Shown piece after piece: positions 35,607 through 60,900 of a stretch of 64,000 bases of DNA. This DNA comes from Strigamia acuminata. Taxonomy: Eukaryota; Arthropoda; Chilopoda; Geophilomorpha; Linotaeniidae. Each line of letters begins with the position of its first letter. Position 1 is the first letter of the stretch. Below the pieces are notes generated by a model. That model saw nothing but the letters and a program-made list of their open reading frames with translations, was not told where the DNA came from and ran no database searches. The position numbers and the translations under genes were made by a program. The DNA is taken from positions 9,176,001 to 9,240,000 of the forward strand of contig OX442322.1 of assembly GCA_949358305.1 (NCBI GenBank). Reading direction: 5' to 3'.

Positions 35607-35608
35607 CT

Positions 35609-37204: not shown

Positions 37205-37209
37205 ATTCC

Positions 37210-37686: not shown

Positions 37687-37688
37687 TA

Positions 37689-37706
37689 TGGTAGCAGAGG
37701 ATGGTT
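37689..37706 (+). promoter_or_regulatory. Primer-binding site of Copia-2, initiator tRNA-Met
   Basis: TGGTAGCAGAGGATGGTT, 2 nt after the LTR: an 18-base match to the complement of animal initiator tRNA-Met 3' end. Confidence 0.92.
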
Positions 37707-38887: not shown

Positions 38888-41800
38888 ATGGCTTCAAAGC
38901 ACGACGATTACAAGGATATTAAAAAGCTCGATGGCACGAACTATGCCACCTGGTCCGTGCAGGTCCAGTTATTGCTCAAATACAACGGCGTTTGGGGACA
39001 TGTTAGTGGCTCTGAGCCACCACTGGCTGCAACAGCCACTGCAAAAGAGAAGCGAGAGTTTAACGCTCGAGAGGACAAGGCAATGTCCACTATCTGCATG
39101 AGTTGCGCTGAGCCGCAGCAAGTGATAGCTGTTGCCTGCCCCACCGCTGCGAAAGTTTGGGAAGCCCTAAAGGACGCTTATCAACCGACGACGAGGGCAC
39201 GTCGTGCTCGGTTGCGACGTGAATTCCTCAACATGAAACTTCGAGATAATGAGGAAATGCTAGTTTTCACCGGGCGGGTCGACCGCAAAATCGTCGAACT
39301 GAAGGACGTTAAAATTGAGGTCACCGATGAATTCCAGGCATTCCAATATTTAGATCTTCTGCCCCCACAATACGAGGCTGTGAAACAGACCGCGTATCAC
39401 TGGTCGGATACGGAATTCACAGCGAAAAACGTTAAAGAACGTTTACTTGGCGAGTACAATCGCCTTTATGAACAGACCAATGAATTTGGCGTCCCACCTG
39501 TATTGGCAGACAATACTACCGCTTTCTATACTAAAGGGAAATGGAAACCTCGTGGAAAAACCCCAAATTCCCCCGGAACTTCGCGTGGAACATGTTTTAC
39601 TTGCGGTGGGTCGGGACACTTCGCCAGGGAGTGCCCATCGCCGCCGAAACAGCAAGGGACTTTCCCCGCCAGCGCTGGCTCGCCAGCCCAATTGAATCGT
39701 GGAGGCACCCGTGGCAAAGGACGAGGCAGAGGGGGTCCACAGAGAGCAAATCTCACACAACTGGACCCCTATACAGATGAGCCCTACACTTTGTATTCTG
39801 CGGTGTCGGAAGAGAAGCCCACAGTGCCCTTATCTCTTGTGTCGCACGGAAACTACGATTCACAGTGGTACGTGGACACGGGAGCGACCGACCACTTTTC
39901 CTTCAACCGGAATTGGTTTTCAAACTTCAAACCGTTGTCTAACTTCAGCGTTCTACAAGGAGAAGGAAAATCGAAGATTGAAGGTGTGGGCAACATCGTC
40001 CTCACTTCGCTCTATGGACAAAGAACGAGGAAAATAACTTTGACGAATGTATTCTTCGCACCGAATTTTCGGAAAAACCTTATTTCGCTCGGGCGCACCG
40101 ATGAGGCTGGGTTGTGCACAATTGTTAAAGATGGGAAGATGAGTATTTTCAAAGATAAAATCGAGGAACCATTGATTTCGGCAGTTCGGACTAGCGACAG
40201 GCTGTACAAAGTCAACTGCCGGGTCGAGGTTAATTCTGTAAACACAGCTGCATTAACTGCGCAACAGGATACAGCTGCTGTCCTCGATTTAATCAAATCA
40301 TCCGTGAAGGATGAAAAATTTGTACAACCGCTACTAACCATTTTAGATTTTAAGTCAGCTTTACTAAAAAGTTTCTGTAAGCCGGATATGGGAAAATCCG
40401 CATCTAATTTGAGTACGCAAGTAAGCGAGCCAACCAAAGCGAATGCGCCTGCGGCGATTAATTTACAGAAAACAGTGAATGAGGTTCAGACACCTCCTGC
40501 TATTGTTCCCGAAGCTAATGCGACTGCGAAAGTTAACAAAAGCGGGGATACTGGGATCAAAATGAGAAAGAAAGAAATATCCCAGAGTATGGACACGTGG
40601 CATTCCAGAATGGGCCACCATAATGCTAAAGGCATTATTAAATTAACCGAATCCGAGGACGTTTTTGGGATCAATTTGTCTAACAAAGAATTATCCACTT
40701 GTGACGCATGTGCCCGTGCTAAGAGCACTAGGGCGAGTTTTCCCCCGATAATTACCATTTCCACTAAGGGAGTATTAGATTTAGTGCACATGGATGTTTG
40801 GGGGGCATCACAAGCTACTTCCTTGGGTGGGGCTAATTTTTACTTTATATTGGTTGATGATTATTCACGTTATATGTGGATCATAACGATGAAGACCAAA
40901 GGGGAAGTTTTGGGCCATTTTAAACGTTGGTTGACGGAAGTCGAAAGAACGACATCACGGAAAGTGAAATGCATTAAAACTGATAATGGAGGAGAATTTA
41001 TTTCGCGGAATTGGGATGATTATGCATCCAAAATTGGTTTGAAATGTATTCGTACGAATACATATAGCCCGGAAATGAATTCTGTTGCAGAACGTGCAAA
41101 CCGTACCATTGTCGGTGGCGTCAGAGCTTTAATGTTGGAAAATGATTTCCCCTATCCCCTTTGGGCTGAATTAGCGACGACCATAGTTTACTTAAAGAAC
41201 CGATTCCCCCATGAAGGGCTTGGAGGAAAAGTGCCCTATACCGTGTTTTTCGGCAAGAAATTGTCTTTGCGACACATCAGGTGTATTGGGTCGAAGACAT
41301 TTGTACATATCCCGTCCCAGGTCAGAAAGGGCAAACTGGAAGGAAGGGCTTGGGCGGGAGCACTCATTGGATACGCAATATCAACTAGGGGCTACAGGGT
41401 TTGGGATCCTGTACGGAATCAAGTTTTTGCGTCCAAACATGTCCGAATTTTCGAAGACTCATATTGGTATGAGATTGGCAAACGGCTACAACAGCCCATC
41501 AAGCAACCGCAGGGTGGCCAATTCAAACATTTTGGGGATTCTTCCTCGGACACCGAGGGAGATGATGATGATTCCGTTGCCCCTATCCCTGAAATTGTTG
41601 AGGAAGTGCAAGAGGCACTACCACCTCCTATTCCGCCCCCTGTTGAACCCCCGGTTCCGAAGGAGAAGCCTCCTTTACCCACAACCCCAAAGCCTGTTTT
41701 CAGACCTGAATTGAGGCCGCTTGTAAAACAAGCGATACAACAGCCTGCGATAGAAACTGTTGAAGGTGACTTGGTTGGGGATGCTGGTGCTGGGGATAAT

Positions 41801-43735: not shown

Positions 43736-43741
43736 CCAAAC

Positions 43742-43752
43742 AAAGGGGGATA
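43742..43752 (+). promoter_or_regulatory. Polypurine tract of Copia-2
   Basis: AAAGGGGGATA directly before the 3' LTR. Confidence 0.8.
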
Positions 43753-44229
43753 TATTGAGTTGTGGTGGAAATATTGTGTGTTTGGTTGTTTGTCGCCATA
43801 TTGTATAGTTTGTGAATATTTACATTACACACTTTCCGGATATGTGTAATGAATGTGCTGCTATTTAATGTCTCGATGTCGCGTTCAATCGATCTCGATT
43901 TTTATTAATGCTGGTTCTGTACCGCGGTTGAACGTTTCCATTTAGCAGCATGCGCTGATAACATCGTCTGCTCAAAAGAGCGAGTCCTGTATTGTTATTA
44001 TTGCTTAGTTATCGATTATGAATGTCATTGCTTTTATTTTATAATGTAAAGGACAAATCATTGAAATCCAACAATGATTTATCCTATTTTTCCGAGTGCA
44101 GTTGTTAGCCTCGAAGCGTGTACACTTTTATGTGATATTAAACATGGCGCACGCATGTCGGTGTCGCGCACCTGTTTAGACACTCGTCAACTCCTTTCTA
44201 ACCGATGTTTTGGCCAGGAAATCGCTTTA
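43753..44229 (+). repeat. 3' LTR of Copia-2
   Basis: 477 bp, same sequence as 37210-37686 where compared. Confidence 0.94.
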
Positions 44230-44663
44230 ATTCCGTCGTCTTGCAAAATCCGCTCTGCAACCGCCGGCGCAGTGTCGATTAGCTGCTGGCGGTAGTGTTG
44301 ATACACTTCTTCGCGGGCCTCCTCGGTCTCGGCCGCTTGCCACGCGAACAACACATGCTCCTCCGCCGGCCTGCCGGAGTATTGGCTCGACAGGGCCGGG
44401 TGGAAGATTGGTGACTTCGGGTCATCGATGCGAGCGAGCTCTGCAGCGACGACGTTTCGCACCGACTCCGGGAACGCGTCCAGGAGTGTACAATCGTTAA
44501 CCCAACGCTTGGCGAGGGCGCGCGAAAATAATACGCGCAGGCGGTATGGCTTCGCATCTTCGCCAAAGCAGCGGCGCAGAAAATCGGGCAGTACGCCTCG
44601 ATATATGCCCGCTCGCACTATGCATGCGGGGCTGAGCGCTCCCCATGTGTCTCGGAGCTCCAT
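44230..44663 (-). CDS. Gypsy ORF3, segment 1 of 3 (interrupted by Copia-2)
   Basis: The third gene of the gypsy element, unknown function. Taken from ATG 44663 (MELRDTWGALSPACIVRAG) after the splice-acceptor-like site. Joining 44663-44230, 37204-36079 and 29246-27939 gives an exact open frame of 956 codons (955 aa). This segment supplies about 145 residues, predicted mostly helical and soluble, ending ERILQDDG, where Copia-2 (TSD ATTCC) splits the codons Gly-Met. The frame is also open upstream to about 45050, so a longer start (for example MNRNRTRRAVARFSD) with a hydrophobic segment is possible. I recognise no domain. Its place after pol is where env lies in errantiviruses, but the protein does not look like an envelope. 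Confidence 0.7.
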
Positions 44664-44685
44664 CTGCAATGATGGAAACAAAATA
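44664..44685 (-). promoter_or_regulatory. Candidate 3' splice site in front of ORF3
   Basis: The sense strand reads TATTTTGTTTCCATCATTGCAG, immediately followed by ATGGAGCTCC. Pyrimidine tract and CAG touch the ATG, as expected for a spliced subgenomic mRNA. No donor was established. Confidence 0.5.
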
Positions 44686-46037
44686 ATTAATGAAATCGCC
44701 AATAACACGGAGATAAATAGGGGGTGGGCTCGAGGAACGTCGCTGAAACGTGCGACCGCTCGTCGAGTCCTATTCCTGTTCATTGATTCGTCCTTGTCAG
44801 GAAGAAAAGAGTCTTCTTGGCACATCTGGTTCACGTCCAATGATAACCACGAGACGGAATCGAGCGTATTAATCCGGAAATTTTTCTTCGGATTGTTTAA
44901 TTTAAAATTAAACTGTAAATTTGTATTTAAACCAATAAATTCGCGAAATCGTTCGTGAAAATCTCCAATAACAATTTTAGAACATGTAAACAAATGTTCT
45001 TGTCGTGAATTAACTTGTAAAGAAATAAATTTGTCTAATAATAACTCCAAAAATTCGGAGTTAAAGTCGAGTTAAAAAACGAATCTATAATAAATTAGTG
45101 TCATCGGGAAAAAATTCGCAAATAAAATAGCAAATAAAAATAGAAACAACGTTCTATAAATTCTTTCAAAATCCATCCAATAAATTATTCCCATTTCTGG
45201 AATATAAAAAGAAAGCTCGTTTCTTTTGTCTCGTTCGTGTCAATTGTCGTGAGTCATCTTCAAGGAGCGAGGCGACAGTTTGTCTGCTATCGCGTCCTTG
45301 AAGGCAAATAATAGGAGAAAATACAATCGCTCTCGCGATCGTGGATATTAGTATAATAATTATACACTATTTCGAACGCAGAGCGTTCATGTCAAGTATT
45401 AGTCAAGTGTATCTTTAATTCGACCGCACGGAGCTAAATCTCGTGCGGCGATGCCGACTACTACCTGATCGGGTGGAACTACGTTTATGTCCGGGTCCCA
45501 ATTCTCGTCATGATGCTGTATTTCAAGCATTTCCTCGTCCCCTCCTTCCTCATCCATCGTGAGGATTGCGCGTTCAGTCAGACCACGATTAAAAAACTTG
45601 AAAACTTCTCGTAAAATGGATCAAAAACTTGGTTAAAAATGCACTCGCTGTGTATCACGTGCGGACGACGATCAGCTGATTTTAGCGGAAGTCCGGGTGA
45701 AAACGAGGCAATCGTGGTGGGTTCTGGGTAATTTTACTCCAGAACCAGGTGTTTATGACTGTGCGCAACAGCCCGTGCGCATGTTACGCTACGGGGCTCC
45801 TTTGTTTCTACGCCCGTGCGCGATCGCTGCTACGGGGTCTTTTGCACGCGGTATCCGACCCGTGCCGATAATTTTGCTACGGGTCCCGCGTTTCCACGCC
45901 ATCTCGTGACGCGAATTCGACCGATATCCGCTTTGTTGGACTTAGCGAAATTTTCAGAGTCTTGGATTTTGATGGCTAGCGCTGTCGATCGGTCAATTTT
46001 TTTGTTTTTCAGCGTCGCCATCGACTCGTAACGTTTT
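44664..46037 (-). other. Gypsy spacer between pol and ORF3
   Basis: About 1.4 kb. The part near pol (45760-45900) holds three similar GCTACGGG(G)T/C strings in GC-rich sequence; the middle is AT-rich with no long frame. The last 390 bases before ORF3 are open in the ORF3 frame, including a hydrophobic stretch FISVLLAISLIILF coded by the pyrimidine-rich DNA in front of the splice-acceptor-like site. Confidence 0.6.
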
Positions 46038-49000
46038 CTACTCCTTTCCTACGACCTTTCCGTCTTTTATAAACGGATTACTTCCACGGGGCCGCAGGTG
46101 ATGAGTCGAGACAGGTACGATATTTTTTGTTGTTTTTTGTGTCTGTACCTCCTCATTACTGTTTTCTTTTTTATCCGTGTTTTTTGTGTTTGTTTCAGGA
46201 GTTTCTCCTGTTTCCCCCCCGACCAAAATTGGATCCGGAACGGATTCAACTATCTCGTTTACCGGTGGTGAAGGGGCGTCGAAATACTCCTCGTTGTCAC
46301 TTGGCGGTGCTTTTTCCGACTCGCCAGCGAACATATCGACGATTTGGCCGTCAGTTTTTGACTTGACTTGGCCCTTGGCCCACATTTCTTGCGGGAATTC
46401 CGGAATGTACGGAGTTAACTCTCGTACCTGGATCGATTTGTGCTCGGTATTGTCCTCGAGCTTACGTAATTTATACGCGTTACCGCCATGCTTGCCGATG
46501 ATCACATACGGACCGTCTCTTTTGTCGGCCAAGCTGGCGGTGATTCCTCTCGCTGCATTTGAGAGGATGTGTGTGTCCTTCCACACTAAATCATTAATCT
46601 CGAAATTCACGAATTTTCCACCGCTTTTATCTTGTAAAATGCGGTCGCGCATGTTAAAAATGTGCGCCATCATGTGCTTGTACGTGTTGGAGATGGTTTG
46701 CTCCAATTTATACACGTACTCATGTGGTTTCTCGGGGTCCACCACATTTACTGACTCTGCCACTCGTGGGTCCCAAGGCACTCGTAGCTCCCGGGCGAAG
46801 TTGAGGTAGGCCGGAGAAAAATCTCTCGTCCTCGAGACTGTTGTTCGTATGCTGAACGCGATCTCCCTCAAGTATTCATCCCACCTATTGTGGATGTCAG
46901 TGAATATGCTTAGTGCATATTTAATGTCCCTGTTGAGTCGCTCAACGGGATTTGTTCTGGGATTGTAGGTCGAAGTATGTGACGCCACAATCCCGAATTT
47001 CTCACAAAACTTACCCCAAATTTTCGAGATAAATTGGGGTCCGTTGTCGGATATCATTTTACGTGGAAATCCGTAACGTAACGCTACGTCGTAGATACAT
47101 TCAACGATTTTTTCTGCTGAAGGTCTAGCGACGGCGTACAACTCGGGCCAACGAGTCGCCACGTCCATTATAACGATAATGTACGCATTTTTATTTCCCG
47201 TAACGGGTTTTGGGCCCATCACATCGACACTTAAACAATCAAAAGGCGCGTAAGGCCCTAAGAAAATAGTTTCGAATGGTGATTTACTCCTCGGCTTGCA
47301 CGCTTGACATCGCTGACATTGGTGGACAAAAAGAGCAATATCTTTTTTCATCCCTGTCCAGTGAAAAAGCTGTGTAGCACGATAGAGTGTTCTGCTTACT
47401 CCCGCATGGCTCGCAAGCGGGTGCCCGTGTAACAACCACAGCACGCGACCGATTAAGGAAGCAGGTATTACTACCTTTACTGCGGTGTCCGATTCACTCA
47501 AGTCATCTTGGTGGTTTGGGTGATGTTTCACCAAAAGGCCGTCATCCAATAGGTAATCTATGGATTCGTGTGCATAACGACGCTTCTGCCTTCTGGTTAA
47601 GTTGGGCGGATATTTTCCTGTCAGTACGAATCTAGCTCTATCCTGACATTTCTTGTCTAATTTTTGTTGCACAATTATTTCCTCCCTTGTCGGGGGATTG
47701 CTTCGCATTTGCCTGCCGACATGAGCGTGGAAGGCGCTTAGAAGCGGGTCATTTATTCTCCGCTCTAGCTTAAATTCCTTCTTTGCATTTGGGTGATTGT
47801 CAGCAGCTGGTTGGTATAACCGCGTCCAGAATCCACAGAATTTTACATCTGCTGGAGACGCGGTGGGAATTTCATTTATCTTCCTTAAATCCCAACGGTG
47901 ACAACTCGTCGGGCAGTAAATGATGCGGGAATCATCCTCGCCATCATCGTCAGCGTCGATAGGATCTGACACTGGTGCCCTTGATAGAGCGTCAGCCACG
48001 ACGTTATATTTGCCGGGCTTGTATTGAATGGTCAAGTCGCATGCCATCAGTTCTAACTGCCATCTGGCTAGTCGACCGGCTGGCTCTTTTAATTTCATCA
48101 GCCATTGTAACGCTTGATGATCTGTGTGGACTACGAATTTGGTATATTCGAGATAATCTCTGAATTTTCTTATAGCCCACACAACTGCCAAACACTCCAA
48201 CTCTGTGGCGTTGTAATTTTTTTCAGCGCCTTGGAGTTTGCGACTTATAAACATGCACGGCAGGTCTTGTTCGACTCCGTCGCGCACGTGAGTTTGGAGC
48301 AACGCGGCTCCTAACCCAACTCTGCTGGCGTCCGTATGTAATATGAACGGCCGGTTTAAGTCGGGTAGAGGCATTACGCCGACTTCCGTCAGCATCCTCT
48401 TTATCGCATTAAATGCGATGTTGCACTCATTTGACCATACAAATTCGTTTTCATTCTTCAGGAGGTCGGTAACTGGGGCTGCCACTTCAGCTAGACCCGG
48501 TAGCAACCTGCCGAAGAAGTTTATCATTCCCATAAACCGTTGGACACCTTTAACGTCCTCGGGTGGTGGGAAACGATTAATCGCATCGATTTTTTCGGGG
48601 CCAATAGCTAAACCGTTGACTCCAATGCGATAACCCAGGAAGGCAAGCTCCTTTCGGCAGAACTTGCTCTTGCCCGGATGAACGTGTAACCCAGCTTTCG
48701 CCAGCCGGGTGAGCACTTGGTCGATGTGCTCAATGTGCTCTTCGAATGTTTTAGAGGCAATAACTATGTCATCTAGGTATGCCCACACGAACTGATGCAG
48801 GATATCACCCAATACGCTTTCGATTAGTCTCTGAAAGGTACTGGGAGCATTCACTAAACCAAACGGCATGACGTTGAACATCAACCGTCCAATTGGCGAG
48901 TAAAATGCTGTTTTTAGCTTATCCTCTGGCCTCATCTCAACTTGCCAGTATCCCTTCGACAGATCCATCGTCGTAACCCAAGAAAAGGGGCTAAGCTCTC

Positions 49001-50108
49001 TCAAAATGGATTCGATAGACGGCATCTGTATGGGATCTATCTCTGTCACCGCGTTTAATGGGCGGTAATCAATGCATAGGCGTGGGTCCGAGCCCGGGCG
49101 CATCACGAGCACAACTCGCGTCGCGTATTCTCCCTGGGCCTCGGAGACAATGCCACTGTCTAGCATTTCTTGGCACATTTTTTGTACTATTTCACGTTTT
49201 TGCGGGTTCATTCCCTTATACGCAACTCGTATAGGTTTATTATCCGTCAATTTAATTTCGTGAATAGCCCTATTCGTTCGGCCCGGTTTTTTCGACAGGA
49301 TCCCCTCATATTTAAGTAGGACCCTTCGTAGGGCTGCCGCTTCGTTTAATTCTAAAGCGGCGTCGGCGACAAGCGTTTCCACTACATTGTCCCGTTGCAA
49401 TTCTGCTACGAATGCTTTAAAATCGTAGTCTTGAACGAATTTCTTTAGGCCTTTCTCCCACTGTGTCTTGTCGGCCGCTTCTTTGATAAGAGCTGGTGGC
49501 ACGACAATTGCGGGTCTTTCTCTATCATTTCTGATATAATTCCAAGATTTCGTTATTGGATTTGGTTGTATTTCCATTGACGCCATGAGGTCTAAGCCCA
49601 ACAGAAAAATTCTGTCGCACGTGGGCAGGACCAGGAAAGGGTGCTGTTCTACCCCTCCGAGCCACTCCATGGTCAATAATATAACTCCTTTTGGACGCGC
49701 CATTCCGTTGGCGGTTTTTAGACGTACATTTTTATTAACGCCTTTTATCTTATCGGTGAGACCCAATGATGCTACTATGTCTTCGGAAACGAACGAGCGA
49801 TCTGCTCCCGAGTCTAGCAGTCCCATAATTTTTTCGCGTTCTATTGTCATGGGCAGCATACATAGGCGGCTGGTATATTCGACCGCCACGTTGCACATGA
49901 AAACACGAAATTCTTCTGTGTCTTCGACTACTTGAGGTAATTCTTCAAGCAGTAGGTTTGGTTCTTCCGCCTCAGCCTCAGCGTTTGCGGTAATTACCTG
50001 CAAAGCGTTGTTGGCCCTGTCTTGGATCTGGGCGTTAGCTATGTCACTACCCATTTCTTTGACTGGTGGCGGTTTATCGAACCCTTTGTTAAACCCCTTC
50101 TTCTTCAT
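46038..50108 (-). CDS. pol: Gypsy Pol: protease, reverse transcriptase, RNase H, integrase
   Basis: 1356 codons from the first ATG (50108); the frame is open further upstream and is probably entered by -1 frameshift from gag. Protease LLDSGADRSFV (about residue 95). RT with RLCIDYRPLNAV, MDLSKGYWQVEM and catalytic YLDDIVIA (about 442). RNase H ILHTDASRVGLGAALLQ (about 590) and VVHTDHQALQWLM. Integrase zinc finger ending CQRCQACK (about 930); catalytic Asp in SVDVMGP (about 958), Asp in SDNGPQF (about 1022), Glu in NPVERLNR (about 1056); GPY/F-type module RDGPYVI (about 1200). No chromodomain recognised. The domain order is Ty3/gypsy, and no stop or frameshift was seen. Confidence 0.96.
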   Translation of the reverse strand: MKKKGFNKGFDKPPPVKEMGSDIANAQIQDRANNALQVITANAEAEAEEPNLLLEELPQVVEDTEEFRVFMCNVAVEYTSRLCMLPMTIEREKIMGLLDSGADRSFVSEDIVASLGLTDKIKGVNKNVRLKTANGMARPKGVILLTMEWLGGVEQHPFLVLPTCDRIFLLGLDLMASMEIQPNPITKSWNYIRNDRERPAIVVPPALIKEAADKTQWEKGLKKFVQDYDFKAFVAELQRDNVVETLVADAALELNEAAALRRVLLKYEGILSKKPGRTNRAIHEIKLTDNKPIRVAYKGMNPQKREIVQKMCQEMLDSGIVSEAQGEYATRVVLVMRPGSDPRLCIDYRPLNAVTEIDPIQMPSIESILRELSPFSWVTTMDLSKGYWQVEMRPEDKLKTAFYSPIGRLMFNVMPFGLVNAPSTFQRLIESVLGDILHQFVWAYLDDIVIASKTFEEHIEHIDQVLTRLAKAGLHVHPGKSKFCRKELAFLGYRIGVNGLAIGPEKIDAINRFPPPEDVKGVQRFMGMINFFGRLLPGLAEVAAPVTDLLKNENEFVWSNECNIAFNAIKRMLTEVGVMPLPDLNRPFILHTDASRVGLGAALLQTHVRDGVEQDLPCMFISRKLQGAEKNYNATELECLAVVWAIRKFRDYLEYTKFVVHTDHQALQWLMKLKEPAGRLARWQLELMACDLTIQYKPGKYNVVADALSRAPVSDPIDADDDGEDDSRIIYCPTSCHRWDLRKINEIPTASPADVKFCGFWTRLYQPAADNHPNAKKEFKLERRINDPLLSAFHAHVGRQMRSNPPTREEIIVQQKLDKKCQDRARFVLTGKYPPNLTRRQKRRYAHESIDYLLDDGLLVKHHPNHQDDLSESDTAVKVVIPASLIGRVLWLLHGHPLASHAGVSRTLYRATQLFHWTGMKKDIALFVHQCQRCQACKPRSKSPFETIFLGPYAPFDCLSVDVMGPKPVTGNKNAYIIVIMDVATRWPELYAVARPSAEKIVECIYDVALRYGFPRKMISDNGPQFISKIWGKFCEKFGIVASHTSTYNPRTNPVERLNRDIKYALSIFTDIHNRWDEYLREIAFSIRTTVSRTRDFSPAYLNFARELRVPWDPRVAESVNVVDPEKPHEYVYKLEQTISNTYKHMMAHIFNMRDRILQDKSGGKFVNFEINDLVWKDTHILSNAARGITASLADKRDGPYVIIGKHGGNAYKLRKLEDNTEHKSIQVRELTPYIPEFPQEMWAKGQVKSKTDGQIVDMFAGESEKAPPSDNEEYFDAPSPPVNEIVESVPDPILVGGETGETPETNTKNTDKKENSNEEVQTQKTTKNIVPVSTHHLRPRGSNPFIKDGKVVGKE

Positions 50109-50113
50109 GAATG

Positions 50114-50177
50114 GCGCAGACGGTCGAGAAGTTATTTCTTCGCCGCCTGCGCTGACTCGTTTTTTGACTCGTTTTTT
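50114..50177 (-). promoter_or_regulatory. Gag-pol -1 frameshift signal: two slippery heptamers plus stem-loop
   Basis: In the gag frame the sense strand reads GCA AAA AAC GAG TCA AAA AAC GAG TCA, giving two in-frame A AAA AAC heptamers (50171-50177 and 50159-50165). Six nt after the second, GCGCAGGCGG (50143-50152) pairs with CCGTCTGCGC (50114-50123): ten bp with one G-U. An inner GAAG/CTTC stem is possible and the gag stop TAA sits in the loop. The -1 frame is open from the heptamers into pol. Confidence 0.85.
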
Positions 50178-53100
50178 GCCATGGCGAGTTTAATCTCTGC
50201 CATCTGCTTCATTATCGCGTCAAACTTAGCGTCTTCTTTCGCTGTTCTTGGGCACTCATTGGAATAGTGACCCGGTTGGTTACACTTAAAACAACGAATA
50301 TTTGATTTGTCTCTTGGGGCTTCAATCGATTTCTTTTTTTCAGGGTCTACTTTCGACGGTGGCGTGTAATTTTTTCGAAAATACTTCGGAATTCGGCCGG
50401 CATTTGGTTTTAACCTGGCGCGAAATTCTTCTACCGCTCTATCTCGATGGATGAGATGTACTAGCGGTCCTTCCTCATCGCAACCCGTTGATAAGGTATC
50501 GCGATAGCTTCGTATTTCTTCGTCCGTCGAATAATCGTCTTTTTCTTCTTTTTCGTCTGATTTTCCGACATTTTGTTCGGCTTCCTCCCCCTCCTTGACC
50601 TCCTCCAGTGTCGCTTGCATGGCTGACGCTGTCGGTGCCTTTTTAGGGGCGGCCAATGGGTTGGAAGGCAGCGTGGATGTCAGTTTATTTTTTATTTGTA
50701 AACCAACGCTAGCTTCTGCCAGCTCCATTATACCGCTAAGATATTCAGTAGGGCGCATGATTTTGTCTGTCGCCCCATATCTTTCCGCACTCAACTTGAG
50801 ACGTTTAGCGGTTGCTGCTTTCTCCGCTTCTGGTAAAGCGGAATAATATCTCTTCTCGATATCTATCGTGTTCTCGAACAGGAAGGCGCTCATTTCTTCG
50901 TAGCTGCCTCCTGTCGGTGCCCTTTCTTCAAGTAGCACCCGTTGCGAGTATTCCGACAAACCGCCGAGAAAGAAAAGGTTGAATCCCGTGGCATGAAATT
51001 CCATCGGGGCCTTTTCGAACAACAATCTGGCGCGAATGTCGTAATCCATTATGGTTTCACCAGGCATCTGGCGAAGACCTCGCATCTTTCGGCTCACCTC
51101 TTCGGGTGTCTCGCCGTAGCGCAGGTCGAATCTCATTAAAAAGTCGTCCCAATTGACGCCTTTCAATCCTTGGTACCACTCACGTGCCGAGCCTGTCATT
51201 AGCTCGACAATACCGTGGGTGAGCATGTCTCCTACGGTGGCTTTAGTGGCAGTCTTAATCCGAATTACTTCGTCAAGGAAGCGATCTCCCGCTTTCCATG
51301 ACCCGTCGAAACGGTTCTGAATATAAAATTGCCACCTAATATTCCCGGTAACACTCATGGTGTCACGTCGGGAGACAGCGTATTTTTTCTTTACGCGGTC
51401 ACCAGTGTTACGATTACGATCATTTCGTTTGCTCAGATCGATTCCTTCGGCTTTTAACGAGCCAAGCAGGGCTCTTCCAAGCTCTCCCATCGTATACTGC
51501 CGACCCGTCGAATCGGTAAACGCGCTTTGTCGGGGAAGGTCCTGAAACTCCTCCCGTCGGTGGTCGCTATTTTCCGATCGACGTCGTTTCTCTCTATCGC
51601 GCGGAGAGTTGGATCTCTTCCGGCGATTACTTGACTTATCATTTCGTCTGTCGTCGTTGGACGAGGGGTCGGAGCTGGGGTCGGGAGACGGTGAGCGGCG
51701 TGGCGGGTTGCGCCGTGAAGAGTTTGACTCTTTCCGGCCCCTACGACGGTCGTCACGTTCCCTTTCCCTGCGTTCATCGCGTTCTCTTTCCCTTCGTCTT
51801 TCTCCGGAACCTCTCTCCGAATCGTGATGACTGGGTGCATTCGACTCCAGTTCATCCGACGACGAATCACTGTTTCCGTAGTGATACTGTTGCTGTCCTC
51901 TTTCGCGTTGACGTTCCTCTCGTGACGATGTGCGGTCTTCGGAAGGTTTTCTCGAAGGTCCGTCGTCTTTGAGGATGGGTACCGGCTGTTGCCAGTCGTT
52001 ACCCCGCGGGTCGTCGCGTTGTCGGCTCGTGTGAGTCTGTTCTTCGTTACGACGCGCGTTGTTCGCATTTATTAATCGGTTGATAGCGTTGTTAGTGTTA
52101 TCGTCTAACGCCATCATGCGAGGTCGAACGCGTTGTTCGGTCGAGACTTCCCGTTTGCGTGGAGTGACTGGCACTTCCTTTTTTCGCTCGGGTTTGGGGC
52201 TGACCTTCGGCGTGCGCTTCGGGTCGCCTTCTACGCTCTCGTCGGACAATTCGGACGAGCTAACTTCTGGCTTGCGAACGGATTTTGGTTTGTCTCGTTG
52301 CAGCCTAGTCATGAAAGCTTGTTCAGCTTCTTGTTGAGAACGGAATGCATAACGATGTGCATGTAAGGCTCGATCAACTATTTCGACTTCTTCTGGAGTA
52401 GTCGGAACGCGCTGGGATTTGCCGTACTCGAGAGCTCGCGCTTCTCTTTCCGCCAGCTTCCGCTTTCTCTCGCGGATGGCTTGTCGGGCCTCATTCTCGG
52501 CATCCGCTTCGAATTGAGCGGAGTCTACCATTTGTTGAGCGTATGCGCCTTCAACAACGGTGATTTCCGGGGATAACCTGTGCGCTCTTAAAGCTGCACG
52601 TACGATTTGTAATGTTTCGTACACAGTTATTTTTCCCGTTGGCAGAGTGTATCGTACACCTTCTGCCTGTGCCAACTGCATCGTGTCAACCAATGTGGCC
52701 GAGACGCTGTAAGGCTGGCTCGGAACACGCTCAGTTTTTGACGCATTGGACTTGTGTCCTTCGGACCTGACCGAAGCTGGGCGGCTTTGCGTAATTGGCG
52801 TGTTTAGTGCCGAATTAGCTGTCGTGTTTGAGGCCGTCTTTTGTATCGGAGACGCCGCTTTCGGACTGCCCACCTCGGTGTCGTGCGTTAGACGAGGCGA
52901 TGGGTTACGGGATAAAACCTCGTTTCCGCTCGTCTCGCCGTCACGGTTAGAACGCGGCAGTTTGGAGTGAGATTGCTCTTCACCCCGCTCTGTCTCGTCC
53001 AATCGCTGCCTCGTCTCGGAACGAGACGGGTGCGATGCCTCTGATGCGCTTCTGCGATCGGGTTTAGGCTCGCGCCGTTTTTGCCTCGCTTCGTGCGCTG

Positions 53101-53212
53101 AGGCTTTGGGTAAGGGACCTCCAGATCGCAAATGATAATCGGCGCCTTTACGGCTACCGGCTCTCTTGTTTGCGTCGGAGTCGGAATCCGTTACTCGGAT
53201 ATTGTCTGCCAT
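50132..53212 (-). CDS. gag: Gypsy Gag, 1026 aa, with an RD/RS-rich region
   Basis: Starts at ATG 53212 (MADNIRVTDSDSDANKRAG) in the context CCAAAAATGG, only about 70 nt from the 5' LTR. The first 450 residues are charged and low in order. About 457-540 is an Arg/Asp/Glu/Ser-rich tract (RRERERDERRERERDDRR). The capsid-like retrotransposon Gag domain lies at about 635-720 (LMTGSAREWYQGLKGVNWDD). One zinc knuckle, CFKCNQPGHYSNEC, lies at about 973-986. Gag forms the particle and binds the RNA. It is two to three times the usual length because of the N-terminal extension. It ends 23 nt before the first pol ATG; the -1 frame is open across the join, and a frameshift signal lies just before the stop. 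Confidence 0.93.
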   Translation of the reverse strand: MADNIRVTDSDSDANKRAGSRKGADYHLRSGGPLPKASAHEARQKRREPKPDRRSASEASHPSRSETRQRLDETERGEEQSHSKLPRSNRDGETSGNEVLSRNPSPRLTHDTEVGSPKAASPIQKTASNTTANSALNTPITQSRPASVRSEGHKSNASKTERVPSQPYSVSATLVDTMQLAQAEGVRYTLPTGKITVYETLQIVRAALRAHRLSPEITVVEGAYAQQMVDSAQFEADAENEARQAIRERKRKLAEREARALEYGKSQRVPTTPEEVEIVDRALHAHRYAFRSQQEAEQAFMTRLQRDKPKSVRKPEVSSSELSDESVEGDPKRTPKVSPKPERKKEVPVTPRKREVSTEQRVRPRMMALDDNTNNAINRLINANNARRNEEQTHTSRQRDDPRGNDWQQPVPILKDDGPSRKPSEDRTSSREERQRERGQQQYHYGNSDSSSDELESNAPSHHDSERGSGERRRERERDERRERERDDRRRGRKESNSSRRNPPRRSPSPDPSSDPSSNDDRRNDKSSNRRKRSNSPRDREKRRRSENSDHRREEFQDLPRQSAFTDSTGRQYTMGELGRALLGSLKAEGIDLSKRNDRNRNTGDRVKKKYAVSRRDTMSVTGNIRWQFYIQNRFDGSWKAGDRFLDEVIRIKTATKATVGDMLTHGIVELMTGSAREWYQGLKGVNWDDFLMRFDLRYGETPEEVSRKMRGLRQMPGETIMDYDIRARLLFEKAPMEFHATGFNLFFLGGLSEYSQRVLLEERAPTGGSYEEMSAFLFENTIDIEKRYYSALPEAEKAATAKRLKLSAERYGATDKIMRPTEYLSGIMELAEASVGLQIKNKLTSTLPSNPLAAPKKAPTASAMQATLEEVKEGEEAEQNVGKSDEKEEKDDYSTDEEIRSYRDTLSTGCDEEGPLVHLIHRDRAVEEFRARLKPNAGRIPKYFRKNYTPPSKVDPEKKKSIEAPRDKSNIRCFKCNQPGHYSNECPRTAKEDAKFDAIMKQMAEIKLAMAKNESKNESAQAAKK

Positions 53213-53258
53213 TTTTGGGTATGAAAATGATCTCAAGTTCTATTCGAGTCGTTTAAAT

Positions 53259-53278
53259 CGATCCCGGACAGGCCCCCA
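53259..53278 (-). promoter_or_regulatory. Primer-binding site of gypsy, tRNA-Pro-like
   Basis: The sense strand reads TGGGGGCCTGTCCGGGATCG, 2 nt after the LTR. It resembles the tRNA-Pro complement used by some retroviruses (TGGGGGCTCGTCCGGGAT) with two differences. The tRNA identity is a moderate guess. Confidence 0.65.
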
Positions 53279-53280
53279 CG

Positions 53281-54276
53281 TGTCGCGCTCAACTCGGTCT
53301 GTCGCTAATACGTGGTATGAGTCACTCTCTAATCTCGCAATACTGCTTTACTCAAGCGGTTACCCAAATAATGTAACACGGCAAGACAATGTAAAAGGTA
53401 AATATAATAAATGTATTTATTATACGGGAATATACAGTTAAAAGGGAATAAAATATGTAAGGGAATAAAAAGGTAAAAGGAAAGGGGTGTGAAGTTGGCG
53501 GGAAACTGGTCGAGGTCGTCCTTTGTCGCTGTGGATCCAAGATGGCGTCCGCGTGGCAACGTGGTGTCGTCTTGGGCCGGCGTGGCAATGAATGGCGTCC
53601 TCGTCTCACGTTTCTCGTTCGGTCCTTCGGGCTCACGCTGGTCGGGCGCGAGTGAATGCCTGAAAGGTCTTACTTCTGGTCTGTTGTCTAGGTTTAGGGT
53701 TTTTTGTAGGTGTCCGGCGATCACACAGCGGCGGACGCTTGGTGGTTCCCGGCGATACACACAGCGGCGGGAACGCTCGTCGTGGTTACTGCAATTTAGG
53801 CTTGTGCGACCGTTTGTCTGCACAACTCGCTAAATTGGAGTAGGTTTACTATTTCTAGCTGGCTTGCTAAAATAGTGTGGTAATCTTGTTTCGCAGGTTA
53901 CTCTGCGGAGGTTAACACAAATCAATCGTACTCACGTTGAAAGTCCCTTGTCCTAGGTCACTCCTGAAGTCTTTGTACTTAGGCTTGATCGTTTTAGGAC
54001 GTTTGGCTTTTACGTGTATCTTGGTTGATTTTTGTGTTGGTTCTGCCCGCTCAGTGCAAGGCGAATTCCTTTGCACAAAGCGGGGGGTGACAGGTGACTA
54101 AAGCCACCCAATAGTGGAGAAGACGAATCTCCCCCACTCCCCCAGGGCAGACGCCCGTCCATTGACTGGATGTCAATGCTCTGAGGGAAGGGAGGCGCGC
54201 GTGCGACTCCCCTTCTTTACCCGTATGTAGGCCACGAGAGAAACTCTTCGTGCCCCACCCCAGTCGGGTCACCACA
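53281..54276 (-). repeat. 5' LTR of gypsy
   Basis: 996 bp; in sense orientation TGTGGTGACCC...GCGCGACA. Followed on the plus strand by the TSD AGAT. Confidence 0.95.
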
Positions 54277-54280
54277 AGAT

Positions 54281-54447
54281 CAACCAGTACTGAGAAATTC
54301 ACTCAAACTAACTCAAAGAAGACTTATATTCAGATAAGTGCCTAATTAAATTCCCAATCTAAGATAAATATTAAAAACCCTTTTTAATAATTCCAGATGA
54401 CTAATTTTTAAGACGTTTAGCAACTTTCCTTTATGTTGCTAGCAACA
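54281..54447 (-). repeat. 3' LTR of BEL-TK, second part
   Basis: 167 bp continuing the LTR after the second AGAT (54277-54280). It ends with the palindrome TGTTGCTAGCAACA at 54434-54447. Confidence 0.92.
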
Positions 54448-54482: not shown

Positions 54483-57400
54483 TCATTTAGTTTGATTACT
54501 TCTGGTCTTTGATGATAATATTTGGGAGACCTCTTTCACCTTTTTGTATTTCACTCTGGATGGCAAGATTCTTTGACGGATCAAATATGGTATCCACGGA
54601 GGTATTCTTCGGTTGACAATCATACAACTAAGTCGAATAATTCCGTTGATGATTTTCCTTTTTGTCTCTACTGACTCCATGGGCTTTGAGAAACATACTC
54701 GACAGGTTGGTTTGTATTTGTCGATCCCTCCTATCACCTTGACTCTGGTTTCGTGCGAAATTCGTCTTGAAAATTCAGCTTTATCTCCGCAAAAATAACA
54801 TTTTGCTTGTAGTTTCACAACAGACTCGGCTAGTGGAACTAACTTGGATATCTGATCAAATGGCTTCCTCTTGAAATCGACGTCTAATGCGGCGACTATT
54901 ACCTTTTTCTTTTGCTCAGCCATTTCATTTGAAAAAGTAAAAATGTCGGGAAAAAACTGTCCTTCATCAATTCCGATTGTCTTCATTAATTTCGTTTTTT
55001 TCACAGCATTGGTTAGGCTACTGGTCGCGATTGCTTCTCGTCGATGACCATCGTGGGTCACGACTTCGGATTTACTGTAACGTTCGTCATTGGAGTGCTT
55101 AATGAGCAAGGACGACGTCTTCTCTTCTTTTTCTAAGATCTTCAATAACTTGGTCGTTTTCCCGGCATACATTGGACCAAGGATAAGGTGAATTCCTCTT
55201 TGATTGTTCGATAAGACATTTTTCTTTTTCCAGAAATTGAAAATCAATTCTCCGGTCCATCTCAAGATTGCACACAATTTGGGTAAACTGGGCACTTGGT
55301 TTGCTTTCTTTCTCAGTGACTCCGACTGATTTCGCCCTCGTAATTCCGGCTTCATGTCCGAGCTTGAAGTTCTGTTGGCCAATCCTCCATCCTTGAACGA
55401 CTTTTTCGTTTTTTGGAGGGTGGTATCCAGTTCCTCTTTCTCCAGACCACTGGAGAGGCTCGCGGCAAAACAAGAAGGTGTGACGTCTGTCTGTTTATTC
55501 ACACCGGGTTCGCCATTCATGTCGGACGGTGATTTCGGAATTAACTGGACTATTTTGTTTTCGTCATTTTCAGGTTGATTTGAGATCACTTCTTCTTTGG
55601 ACTCGACCGCCATGCAAGAAATGTTGCATGCTGCCATGTTTTCTTCAAGCGGGTTGTTTGGTCTCAGTCGACCGTTTAGAATCCACCCAAAAATTGTCTG
55701 CATTAATCCCAACTCGTCGTTGATTTTTCGGCTTCCACCTTGACAAATCTTCCACCATGCGTTGCTTCCTAATAAGACGTCAATGTCTTCCGATTCTGAC
55801 GGATGTATCTCAGCCATCTCAAGTCCGAGTGATTGGACCTGCTTTATGGCTTCTGCTCCAATTATCCCTTTGACTTTCGGGAGCGTGTCGGTTTCTAATG
55901 CAAGGATTGATGTCTTTTCCGTTCCGTGTCTTGATTGCAGTTCGAATCTAAAGACATCATGTGTCGTCGGAACTGGCTTTTTGTTGAGCAGACACTGTGT
56001 CATCGTGTGTAGTGTCTCGATCTTTTGCATCCGGAATTTATTTACTAGTCTCTTCGTGACGTAGGAGCGATGGCTTCCTGGATCTAGTAATCCGCGGACG
56101 GGGTACATGTCTCCATTTTTCTTCACAAAAAGAGCAGTGAAGACCATCAGTTGAATCTCCACCGACTCGGTAAGCGATACATTAGTAGACACGTTTTCTT
56201 CTTTTGGTGTAATCGCTTTTTCTTTGTTGTTTTTGTTGCAGATCGATGTGTGATGTCTTCCACCACACAAGCGACAACAAAACTTCACGGTACATTCTTT
56301 GGCTGTGTGGTTATATCTCAAGCAGTTGAAACAAAGTCGTTTCTTCTTCACTATTTCGATCCTCGCCGGTACATCTAGATCGGCGTCACAGTTTGCGTGT
56401 GCGTGATCACCATCACAATAAGCGCAAGCGGGTTTGCGGTTTGGATTCGACTTGGAATTCATGCTTAATTTTCCATTCTCAGAAGTCACGAATGAGGACA
56501 TTGTTCCAGTTGGTCTTTCTCTTGTTTCCTTTGAAGTTTTCTCAAATTTTTCTGACTTCTTCAGATGAGCGCGCTTAAGGAGAACGCTTTCTTCCGACAA
56601 TTCAGCCAGTTGTATCTCGGTTGCTACGAAGTCCAGAAAAACGTTAACATCATCAACTTTTCCTTGATGCTTTCGGTAAAAACGTTGGGAGATCTCCGGT
56701 GGAAATTTTCTAAGTAGTTCTGGAATAAGGTACGTTCCAGTAGTGTCAACTGACACAGACAGTTGCGCCATGGTCCGGACAGCAGATGCCAATGACGTGA
56801 ATAGAGCTTTAAGTGGCTCGATTGGGTAGAGATCGAAAACGGGTTTCGACTCCCTAATCATCTTTGAAATCGCATTTCTCTGCGTGTTTTCAGATCCGAA
56901 TAGACTCTCCAATGTATTTTTCGCTAATGGGTAGGCGTCATCAGTTATTGGGTACGACTTGATTGCGGATTCTGCAGCCCCAGTGCAGCATGACCTCAGA
57001 TATATAAGCTTTTCCACGTTCGAAAGCTCCGTGTTCTGATCAACCGCTGATTCGAATAAATTCGCAAAGCCTCTATATTCAGTTGCATCGCCACTAAATT
57101 TGGCAATGTCGGTTTTCGGCAATCTCGTGTTTCTCCTAGATGAAGCGGACGTCTGGTTTAAACTGGAATTCTGTCCCGGATGGGAACCAAATTGCCCTGC
57201 CATTTTTCCAGACACTTTGGCTCTTTGTTTCAATAAATTAACTCTGGTTCTAATGTCTTCAATTCGTTGAAGCCCTGCTAAATAGTCCTCTCTTTTTGAC
57301 TCGTCTTTAAGAGCTTTCAATTCGTCGGCGAGATCACTCAATTGCTGGTCAACCGTTATTTGCATGGCTTCCAGCTCTCCTCCGTCTAGAATGTTGACTG

Positions 57401-57488
57401 AAGATCCCAGCAGATCCTCGGCTCCTTGAGCCTTTGCTTTCCAAATGACCTCCTTTTCCTCGAGATCAGCAGCGGATAATGTAGCCAT
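54483..57488 (-). CDS. BEL-TK polyprotein: Gag, aspartic-protease-like domain and thymidine kinase
   Basis: 1001 aa from ATG 57488 (MATLSAADLEEKEVIWKAKA). N-terminal helical region; BEL Gag core (about residues 120-320); cysteine motifs CFNCLRYNHTAKEC and CRLCGGRHHTSIC (about 380-415); protease motif LLDPGSHRSYV (about 465), proline in place of the usual serine, with the BEL tail DIDVLLGSNAWWKI...FGWILNG. At about residue 765, where BEL proteins enter RT, a complete type II thymidine kinase begins: P-loop GPMYAGKT (771-778), RYSKSEVVTHDG, catalytic DEGQFF (841-846, base Glu842), ALDVDFKRKPF, LVPLAESVVKL, zinc ribbon Cys897/900 and Cys929/932 around VIGGIDKY. It ends near 940, followed by a basic tail. 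TK1 enzymes phosphorylate thymidine using ATP; all key residues I can check are present. Kinase capture from an animal TK1 gene is inferred. The stop is 35 bp from the 3' LTR, so no RT can follow. Confidence 0.93.
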   Translation of the reverse strand: MATLSAADLEEKEVIWKAKAQGAEDLLGSSVNILDGGELEAMQITVDQQLSDLADELKALKDESKREDYLAGLQRIEDIRTRVNLLKQRAKVSGKMAGQFGSHPGQNSSLNQTSASSRRNTRLPKTDIAKFSGDATEYRGFANLFESAVDQNTELSNVEKLIYLRSCCTGAAESAIKSYPITDDAYPLAKNTLESLFGSENTQRNAISKMIRESKPVFDLYPIEPLKALFTSLASAVRTMAQLSVSVDTTGTYLIPELLRKFPPEISQRFYRKHQGKVDDVNVFLDFVATEIQLAELSEESVLLKRAHLKKSEKFEKTSKETRERPTGTMSSFVTSENGKLSMNSKSNPNRKPACAYCDGDHAHANCDADLDVPARIEIVKKKRLCFNCLRYNHTAKECTVKFCCRLCGGRHHTSICNKNNKEKAITPKEENVSTNVSLTESVEIQLMVFTALFVKKNGDMYPVRGLLDPGSHRSYVTKRLVNKFRMQKIETLHTMTQCLLNKKPVPTTHDVFRFELQSRHGTEKTSILALETDTLPKVKGIIGAEAIKQVQSLGLEMAEIHPSESEDIDVLLGSNAWWKICQGGSRKINDELGLMQTIFGWILNGRLRPNNPLEENMAACNISCMAVESKEEVISNQPENDENKIVQLIPKSPSDMNGEPGVNKQTDVTPSCFAASLSSGLEKEELDTTLQKTKKSFKDGGLANRTSSSDMKPELRGRNQSESLRKKANQVPSLPKLCAILRWTGELIFNFWKKKNVLSNNQRGIHLILGPMYAGKTTKLLKILEKEEKTSSLLIKHSNDERYSKSEVVTHDGHRREAIATSSLTNAVKKTKLMKTIGIDEGQFFPDIFTFSNEMAEQKKKVIVAALDVDFKRKPFDQISKLVPLAESVVKLQAKCYFCGDKAEFSRRISHETRVKVIGGIDKYKPTCRVCFSKPMESVETKRKIINGIIRLSCMIVNRRIPPWIPYLIRQRILPSRVKYKKVKEVSQILSSKTRSNQTK

Positions 57489-58282
57489 AATCCTCACCGA
57501 GAAATGAAGAATTCAAGGATCAGTTCAGGATTCAAACCCAACTTAACTGACTAAATTGGTTAACAAGAATTTGTCTAATTCTTTTACACTCTAGGATTTA
57601 CTGAACACACAAAAACAGGATGGATATCCACAAGCTGTTAACAGGATTGAAACACACGAGATGTTAAAAGGATTGGCAAATTAACCCCCAAAATTCAATA
57701 ATTAAAGGTAATTGACAATTCTCTTATTTTCACAATTGAGTTTCTGACTAGATACTCGTTTTAAATTGGGATACCAACACTAAAGCTTGGTATTATTCAC
57801 TAATTCACTGGATATTCTCTAAATTCCACAAACTGGAATCGAGAATTTATTCAAACTGTTAAGACTTAAACTTCTTCTCCCCCCAACTACACCAGTTTCT
57901 AATCAAAAACTCCTTTGAAATGATTACAGCAGCAAATTCGGATATTATTCTATTTAAATAATAATTCTTAATAATTATTTCTTCAAATCTTCTTGTAGGA
58001 TGTACATTGCGTTGTGTTTGGAATTGATTGTCGTGCAGGATCGCTCGTACTCTCGAAGCCTTGCTTGATCCAAGTTGAAAAACCTCTTGACCATCTTGAC
58101 AATTTGAGAATCCAACTTGAAAAACCCACTTTTTTGCCTGTGAAAGGCGGACGAGAGCATACACTTCACTGTAGTGGCACAGCTTCAATGGCACTTTACA
58201 CATAAAAGCTTTGCACAGCTTGAGAACAAAACCCACTGATGAATTTTGCAGCACACATGAAGGTCCACTGAGATAACTGGAA
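57489..58282 (-). other. BEL-TK leader
   Basis: About 800 bp between primer site and gag ATG. It is AT-rich in the half next to gag and holds the CACAACGCA box. A short frame (58169-57975, 64 codons) ends just past the box. No gene recognised. Confidence 0.6.
58008..58016 (-). promoter_or_regulatory. CACAACGCA box in the BEL-TK leader
   Basis: Sense-strand nonamer followed by ATG, about 290 nt from the primer site. Shared with four other elements in the window. Confidence 0.6.
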
Positions 58283-58305
58283 GAAATCCTTGGTTCACGG
58301 TACCA
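58283..58305 (-). promoter_or_regulatory. Primer-binding site of BEL-TK, tRNA-His type
   Basis: Sense strand TGGTACCGTGAACCAAGGAT, 3 nt after the LTR. It follows the complement of tRNA-His (TGGTGCCGTGACCAGGAT) with one substitution and two inserted A residues. Confidence 0.7.
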
Positions 58306-58308: not shown

Positions 58309-59665
58309 TGTTTCTGGCAAGGTCGCAGGCGACAACCAGGCCAGAAGGAGGGGCGGCAATACTTGACTGCTGCTTGGCACAAATTGATAAACAGAAGTTG
58401 GCCAAAGACTTGAAGAAATGCAAACACTGGACTTGAACTTGCTGCTTCACATGATGATCTGCCACTGGTGAGTTCAAGGAGGAGGAAGGAGGATTTTTCT
58501 ACTCACTGCACATTGCTTTCTGGTTGTATAGAGAAATGAGACTTGGAGAGAAATAAAAAGCAACCATTTTATTCTCTAAATTCTTAACAACACTACTACA
58601 ATTGAATCACGAGGATTTTACAAAGAAGTCACACTTTAACAATAATAAGAAACAACAAGTGTAACTATCTCCACATTGTATAAGGACACTTGCACTTAAA
58701 GTTACAGAGGTCTCTAAGTGCTTGTAAAGAGAAATAAGTACTGCTGGCACAACAAAACTACCGTAGAAGTTAATAGTTGAAAACACATAAGCCTAACAGC
58801 AAGTATTTGGCATTAAATGCAAAAGTATACATTAACAACAGTCTCTAAACACAATGCTCATTGAGAACTAAATTATTCACTCTAAAACACACTGAACAAC
58901 TCATAAAATAGAGAAAAGAATAAGTAAAGACATTTTAGACCAATGAGCTGGCAACTTTACAGTAAGTGCAGAAGTTAAGTTATAAATCAACACAGATAAA
59001 TCTCAAACTTAACACTTTTACATTGCATAATAATTAAGTGATTAATTATTAATCAGAACCCACAAAAACTCTTTGGGATTAAACATTTTCTCCTCTCTTT
59101 ACAGATACAAGTAGACCACTCCCACAGTAATGGCCGACAATGTAAACAGAGATCACTTGCAGGAGGATAAAAAGGCTTGAAATTAGCTCACTAGACAGGC
59201 TACACACAATCTAAGTTAACAAAACGCTTAATTGGTTAGTAATATACAGAAAACTCACAGAAATTGATTGAAACAGCTTAAAACTGATAATAACATACAT
59301 TTCTCATTCTAGTACACTTTTGCTGTCTGAAAGCATCACTACACCTTGTCACTACATTGACAGTAGTGGACTGGAAACAGGAAAACACTTGGAAACATCA
59401 AAACATGTATAACACAGGTAAACAAGATAGAAAATAAATTCTAAGTGGAAAAATAACTAATGTAAAACTCTTTTCTTCCCAGATTTATCCGGTCAGATCA
59501 ACCAGTACTGAGAAATTCACTCAAACTAACTCAAAGAAGACTTATATTCAGATAAGTGCCTAATTAAATTCCCAATCTAAGATAAATATTAAAAACCCTT
59601 TTTAATAATTCCAGATGACTAATTTTTAAGACGTTTAGCAACTTTCCTTTATGTTGCTAGCAACA
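58309..59665 (-). repeat. 5' LTR of BEL-TK
   Basis: 1357 bp. In sense orientation it starts with the 14-bp palindrome TGTTGCTAGCAACA (59652-59665) and ends GCCAGAAACA. Confidence 0.93.
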
Positions 59666-59669
59666 TAGG

Positions 59670-60900
59670 TCTTCTTGACCCCGGGAGTCACCGGTCGTAC
59701 GTATCTACCAAATTGGTCGAATGCCTTCGGATGACAAAGAAGGGATCCGTAGCATACATGATGAAGCGATTGGATGATGAACATGCGGTTCCCGCTAATT
59801 ACGACGTAATTCCAGTAGAGCTACAGTCACGTCACGGAAATCAAAAGCTTACATTTGATGCGTTAAAAGCTAAAGCGTTGCCCACAGTCAGTGGACTGAC
59901 AAACGCCGAAACTATCAAGAAAATATTGGCGTTTGGATTGGAATTAGCTGAACCGCATCCGTCAGTCACGGATGAAATTGACTTCCTAATAGGAGGTGAC
60001 AACTTTTGGAAAGTTGCTCTCTGTGGAAGAAAACGAATTAGCAAAACATTTGGTTTGTCTCGCACGATATTTGGTTGGATTGCCAATGGTTCGATTGGAA
60101 ACACAAACCACGATTTGGATGAATATTCGGATACTAGCGCAGCTGTATCGTGTCTCTCGGTAGAACAAGGCCAAATTATCCGGAACAAATCAAAAAATCC
60201 GGTCCTAATCGCAACTCAAGCATCGGAAGTCGTCCATCGCAAGAAGTTGAGTCAAATTTCAGATGAAAGGTCAAGTTGTTTCTGCACAGTCAACTCAAAC
60301 CTTCCCAAATCATCAAAGACCATGCTTTCTCGAAAGGAAGGATCTGGAAATGCAGTCAAGAGCTGGCTACTTGGTTCTTTCGGCCGGGAAAATATTCCTC
60401 GTTACCGTGTGGAGAAGAGTTGGACTCGGAATTGGAGTGTAAGGTTATCCCACCCGGACTTTTTAAATTTCTGGGGCTCGATTCGAAGTAATCTAGAGGA
60501 AATTCAATCGATTAAAGGCCCAATGTTCTTGGGAAAAAAGGAAAAGCTTCTCGAGTTGCTGAAAATAGACAAAAAACCTTTACTATTCAGAAATACAAGA
60601 GACGTTTTGAGTCAAACTATTATCAAACAAGATCGAAATGTTGGCGCAGAAATCGAATTGGTAAAGGAAGCAGATGCACGTCGTCCTAAGTATCGATATA
60701 GATCGCCTTGCACAAAGATGAAGTCGTTTGTAGGCAAAAATCAGAAATTTTCTTTCACTCATCAAGACTATGGTTTCTATTCAAAAGATCCACTGAAACA
60801 GAAACAGATGATAAATACACTGGTCAAGTTAAGCTTGGTCGCTGTTGGTAAAAGAATACCTGAATGGATTTCAAACCTATTACGTCAAAGAATTACATAG
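59670..60900 (+). CDS. BEL-1 polyprotein, C-terminal half: protease-like region and degenerate thymidine kinase (interrupted gene)
   Basis: Continues the ORF from 25713 in frame; joined length is 891 aa. It opens with LLDPGSHRSYV, the aspartic-protease-like motif, and goes on with the BEL protease-domain pattern (PVELQSRHG, EIDFLIGGDNFWKV, GLSRTIFGWIANG). After a linker, the part aligned with the BEL-TK kinase follows: FLNFWGSIRS, then GPMFLGKK (about residue 765) where BEL-TK has GPMYAGKT. The P-loop threonine is lost, no DEGQF segment or zinc ribbon is present, and the region is about 110 residues shorter. The tail (RIPEWISNLLRQRI) matches the BEL-TK tail (RIPPWIPYLIRQRI). No RT follows: the stop is 33 bp before the 3' LTR. 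The frame stayed open although the kinase residues are gone, so the region may have kept another role, or decay is recent. Confidence 0.85.

Follow-up and report, generated by a model that had tools for sequence, protein, structure and literature searches.

A non-autonomous BEL/Pao retroelement of Strigamia acuminata with an in-frame thymidine kinase behind its protease-like domain

BEL/Pao retroelements (Belpaoviridae) duplicate 4-6 bp of target DNA on insertion, and plants harbor non-autonomous LTR elements, termed TR-GAG, that encode Gag but no pol. Retroviral dUTPase illustrates how poor nucleotide quality can hold back reverse transcription. Most studies are said to find the dUTPase of non-primate lentiviruses critical only in non-dividing cells (PMC4531489), and the dUTPase of bdelloid LTR elements is placed between protease and reverse transcriptase (RT) (PMC5408684). 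A Meloidogyne study names a thymidine kinase (TK) as a putative transferred gene. Searches over titles and abstract openings of open-access papers listed no retroelement with a TK, in agreement with an earlier sequence-only reading of this DNA, which knew of no such LTR element. Here we describe a TK-bearing BEL/Pao derivative in a 64,000-nucleotide stretch of Strigamia acuminata contig OX442322.1 (the window).

Anatomy of the element in the window

A single minus-strand ORF of 1001 codons (54483..57488) runs from an ATG at 57488 to a stop at 54483, as the sequence-only reading had reported, and encodes a BEL Gag with zinc knuckles, followed in order by a protease-like domain, the linker behind it, a type II TK and a tail. 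We searched Pfam with a 1004-amino-acid frame that starts at a GTG upstream of the ATG, and found the BEL Gag domain DUF1759 (PF03564; 56673..57098, minus strand) at residues 134-275 (2e-17). The cysteines of CCHC-type zinc knuckles (CAYC, CFNC and CRLCGG; 56241..56429, minus), assigned by motif, and the LLDPGSHRSY of the protease-like domain (55668..56135, minus) were identified by reading the sequence. Pfam gave no protease match of its own in the window ORF, and matched the ORF at locus L009 only below the cut-off; the window ORF nevertheless aligns over residues 401-609 (213 columns, 43% identity) with an RT-bearing BEL ORF at locus L011 whose protease passes the DUF1758 cut-off, which places the domain among the BEL-type aspartic proteases. 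The earlier claim of BEL Gag knuckles and a protease-like domain is thus upheld.

Alignment to the copies L012, L013 and L014 delimits a 5′ LTR of 1357 bp with TG...CA ends (58309..59665, minus). A putative tRNA primer binding site, TGGTACCGTGAACCAAGG (58288..58305, minus), lies three bases inside this LTR, and a leader (57489..58287, minus) connects it to the ATG. The 3′ LTR is split into a first piece (54277..54447, minus), with no mismatch over a 174-bp match to the end of the 5′ LTR, and a second piece (25714..26903, minus), with one mismatch in 1190 bp. The ORF had been described as lying between two LTRs; these are real, but the 174-bp repeat pair is only the end of the 1357-bp LTR. LTRs, primer site and short target duplication are those of a BEL/Pao element, with an imperfect duplication in the window copy itself (GAGG versus TAGG).

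The element is embedded in a nest of retroelements that spans 24269-60900. It sits within the Gag region of an older, plus-strand BEL element of family C, whose Gag (24269..25713, plus; DUF1759, 1.1e-19) is 45% identical to the window Gag and whose remainder (59666..60900, plus) comprises a protease, a decayed TK remnant and a tail. Its own 3′ LTR is in turn interrupted by a 27.4-kb insertion (26904..54276) with AGAT at both junctions and TG...CA ends, which contains a Ty3-type Gag and Pol ORF pair and two Ty1/copia-type ORFs. At L011 and L009, copies of the Gag-TK element appear to lie within RT-bearing BEL elements, at their integrase end.

The kinase domain (54690..55193, minus) matches PF00265 at residues 769-936 of the 1004-residue frame (1e-53; 182 bits against a cut-off of 20.6) over model positions 3-176 of 176, and retains the P-loop GPMYAGKT, DEGQFF and two CxxC pairs. 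An AlphaFold2 model of the domain (pLDDT 88) has the TK1 fold, with human TK1 (1xbt_D) as its best Foldseek match (rmsd 1.3; TM-score 0.80 by query and 0.94 by target). Both the profile search and the structure prediction thus bear out the proposal that a complete type II TK ends the polyprotein in the place of RT. Across 40 aligned TKs (four from BEL elements, three other TKs of this genome and 33 from a protein search), 28 columns are invariant, including G-P-M..G-K of the P-loop, DEGQFF and the four cysteines; from the TK1 literature we take the P-loop to bind phosphate, DEGQFF to serve catalysis and the cysteines to hold zinc. By its motifs and predicted fold, the domain resembles a working enzyme. 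It is preceded by a faster-evolving linker (55194..55667, minus), recognized by its dN/dS, and followed by a C-terminal tail (54486..54689, minus) whose first part is common to families B and C.

The window ORF carries no RT, RNase H or integrase: none of these had a Pfam match in the 1004-residue frame at E values up to 0.01. The RT-bearing ORF at L011, whose start is lost at the end of the fetched stretch, encodes protease, RT, Pao peptidase and integrase, and the homology of the window ORF to it ends after the protease, at residue 609. Because these three functions are absent and the homology stops at this point, the TK element is a non-autonomous BEL/Pao derivative and not a complete BEL element. 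Gag and the protease-like domain have been kept, and the TK is fused in frame after the protease.

Copies, mobility and RT-bearing relatives

The 237.5-Mb genome contains at least 150 TK matches, all above the Pfam cut-off; this and the counts that follow are lower bounds because 150 of 205 candidates were scored. Judged by frame length and score, 92 belong to the Gag-TK type, and the remaining 58 are not BEL. Open frames of 995-1013 residues hold 84 of the 92, seven frames are shorter and one has a stop; a search with a Parascaris TK added one further Gag-TK place (C27, 991 residues), bringing the total to 93. Gag lies upstream of TK at each of the nine loci that were fetched at sufficient length (L009-L016 and L025). 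The examined copies form two families: family A, with the window copy and L012-L014, and family B, with L009, L011, L015, L016 and a more distant member, L010. The search for more Gag-TK copies between LTRs that the sequence-only reading had suggested thus had a positive outcome: the 92 places are spread over many contigs, and those examined are bounded by LTRs.

In all eight copies that could be compared (the window, L009 and L011-L016, with L010 and L025 left out), the two LTRs are at least 99.9% identical: 99.93% in L012 and 100% in L009, L011, L013, L014, L015 and L016, some over partial LTRs. All four further copies inspected for target duplications have one (L012, TCAAC; L013, TCAC; L015, TTTG; L016, GGTC). 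A pattern of LTR end plus primer site occurs 81 times in the genome and not once in a reversed control; at 70 of these sites a listed TK follows 2.5-4.5 kb downstream, at 11 none does, and the exact pattern is missing at 23 of the 93 TK places. Overall, near-identical LTR pairs, short target duplications and a primer-like site behind the LTR show that the TK element multiplied recently by retrotransposition. At six of 16 distinct Gag-TK loci, the window included among the 16, the element adjoins a 140-bp satellite array (L003, L007, L008, L012, L014 and L015), which suggests that Gag-TK elements inserted into satellite DNA.

RT-bearing BEL elements are abundant in this genome. Family D, the L011 type, yielded 3921 candidates; among 36 scored, 31 lie in frames of 1750-1751 residues, three of which contain a stop. 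Family E, also RT-bearing, has a 2043-residue frame. The primer-like sites of D and E are similar but not identical to those of A and B. LTR stretches sampled from D and E gave no match to A or B LTRs or leaders at E 0.01, apart from very short D matches at E 0.005-0.014 in one comparison; as RT partners recognized by a common LTR, D and E gain no support from the sampled stretches. Eleven of the primer-like sites lack a TK; downstream of six of them, 2.2-kb stretches contained no RT and, at one site, a piece of Gag, and one of the other five looks like a chance match. An autonomous partner with an LTR matching A or B was not found among the sampled D and E stretches and these six TK-less primer sites. 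A further BEL family, F (L040 and L042), has a Gag-protease frame of about 822 residues with a short hydrophobic end and no RT in frame.

Constraint, origin and loss of the kinase

The TKs of families A and B are 51-54% identical, and both keep the motifs. Nei-Gojobori counts cover four pairs with countable synonymous change, of which two differ by just six and eight TK changes. In these pairs, dN/dS in the TK was 0.15 (window versus L012), 0.14 (L012 versus L013), 0.17 (L009 versus L015) and 0.13 (L009 versus L010), and in the linker 0.89, 0.39, 0.54 and 0.46, respectively. The corresponding synonymous and nonsynonymous TK differences were 17/10, 4/2, 5/3 and 68.2/49.8. In two additional close pairs, the TKs differ at no synonymous site (linker dN/dS 0.27 in L009 versus L011), and the comparison of A with B is saturated. 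In the divergent pair L009 and L010, TK dS is about 1.0 and dN/dS is still 0.13. At the sequence level, these values indicate that the TK evolves under purifying selection inside the element; it is apparently intact and looks to have been kept working by selection. Between the window copy and L012, nonsynonymous differences are absent from the first 320 residues of Gag but number ten in the TK, which suggests exchange between subfamilies.

The sequence-only reading had proposed the capture of an animal TK1, and here the tree disagreed: the kinase clusters with further multi-copy TKs from this genome, apart from the animal TK1s sampled. Families A and B form one group (95% ultrafast bootstrap) and the standalone TK types another (93%), and all included TKs of this genome split at 99% from 17 outside TKs (13 animal, two poxvirus, Parascaris and Trypanosoma, chosen from 121 proteins), a separation to which long-branch attraction may contribute. 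With these 17 sequences, the split speaks against the capture of an ordinary animal TK1. On the tree, the simplest reading would be that a TK of this host lineage was captured once. A Parascaris protein query did not recover a host TK1 gene, and returned only Gag-TK and repeat TKs among the 129 of 198 candidates scored.

By frame length, the 58 non-BEL matches fall into frames of 190 residues (40), 181 residues (13) and 221/239 residues (five), from which we fetched three, six and two loci, respectively. The 190-residue TKs (L026, L027, L028 and 37 more places) lie within a non-BEL repeat unit, of which the L026 and L028 copies are 99.7% identical over 8.2 kb; the other two types, sampled at L017-L024, are likewise multi-copy. 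In other species, the TK region as query, among proteins of 552-1757 residues, gave one match in 484 candidates, a tandem TK of a trypanosome. The whole ORF retrieved 17 relatives at 22-29% identity, none listed with a TK domain, among the best 7999 candidates by common words.

Family C lacks the catalytic and cysteine motifs and any Pfam TK match. It has a P-loop-like stretch and the tail in common with family A (pairwise E 5e-06 and 3e-07) and with family B (0.003 and 2e-05), values computed against 709 letters and without composition correction, and its LTR region has collinear stretches of 75-80% identity to the A LTR and one of 67.5% to the B LTR. Among 102 of 1023 candidates scored, at least 23 matches span the whole tail, and 19 of these lie in open 892-residue frames. 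Since the kinase motifs are gone and the family nonetheless multiplied, the TK is dispensable in the family C lineage, a result that counts against a need for it. In a Gag tree of seven sequences, family C groups with E and F, apart from A and B (98%); in a protease tree of eight, it pairs with F at only 72%. The tail and LTR of family C resemble those of A, but its Gag groups elsewhere, which implies that the TK-and-tail cassette either moved between Gag lineages or is older and was lost in some.

Role of the kinase and comparison with known systems

Beyond the fusion, copy number, recency and constraint observed for Gag-TK, we think it probable that this non-autonomous BEL/Pao retrotransposon uses its in-frame TK to support dTTP for reverse transcription, with RT acting in trans. 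RT and integrase would come from elsewhere, probably from an RT-bearing BEL family of this genome. The polyprotein would deliver the TK into or near the particle through co-packaging with Gag, where the predicted activity would phosphorylate thymidine to dTMP. By analogy with retroviral dUTPase, the dTMP may help to provide dTTP for reverse transcription in cells with little TK of their own. A wider reading, which we put forward tentatively, is that a nucleotide-salvage enzyme has replaced the polymerase, such that one element pays the dTTP and another supplies RT, and that TK is a recurrent cargo of repeats, in BEL and in three further multi-copy TK units.

The kinase could instead be retained for its structure. 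TK1-type enzymes form dimers and tetramers, and such a fold, which here closes a Gag polyprotein at its C terminus, could help particles to assemble while catalysis plays no part, a view that gains from the conservation of the post-TK tail in family C despite the loss of the TK. We consider this unlikely: an invariant P-loop, DEGQFF and zinc-type cysteines go beyond what would be expected of a scaffold, and family C does not require the fold. That the TK serves the cell, through more germ-line thymidine salvage from which the element profits indirectly, and not reverse transcription, seems improbable to us. With 58 of the 150 scored matches in multi-copy non-BEL units, high TK dosage may be tolerated or even useful; against this, the matches scored include no single-copy gene derived from a BEL TK, the window copy lies in a retroelement nest and six of the 16 Gag-TK loci adjoin satellite DNA.

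Youth alone could also keep copies intact, and nearly identical LTR pairs together with the decay of family C are what a chance-captured passenger, now decaying, would produce. We give this very little credence, since L009 and L010 keep a TK dN/dS of 0.13 at a dS of about 1.0 and families A and B both retain the motifs across their divergence. Nothing found supports an assembly chimera or an insertion private to a single copy, and copy number refutes both, with LTR-bounded copies on many contigs and in two families. A young, multi-copy Gag-TK fusion under selection, beside the kinase-less family C, offers a natural test of whether retrotransposition is limited by dTTP, and the pair also bears on how a non-autonomous element can take on a metabolic role.

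Compared with known systems, the element shares with BEL/Pao its TG...CA LTRs, primer-like site, DUF1759 Gag, zinc knuckles, homologous protease and 4-5-bp target duplications, but has a TK and a new tail after the protease in place of RT, RNase H and integrase. TR-GAG elements similarly bear Gag without pol and are presumably mobilized in trans, but they are plant elements, whereas Gag-TK adds a nucleotide enzyme. The dUTPase retroviruses and the bdelloid Juno, Vesta and TelKA (PMC4531489, PMC5408684) likewise encode an enzyme of nucleotide metabolism; theirs is a dUTPase with RT kept, and here it is a TK with RT absent. CrocERV29 and CrocERV31 also captured host-type coding sequence in an LTR element, but the captured genes are reported to be KIT-ligand and nectin3, not a nucleotide kinase (PMC4299795). 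With cellular TK1 and poxvirus TK, finally, the window kinase has enzyme family, motifs and predicted fold in common, but it resides within a retroelement polyprotein and is 37-50% identical to the 33 outside TKs aligned.
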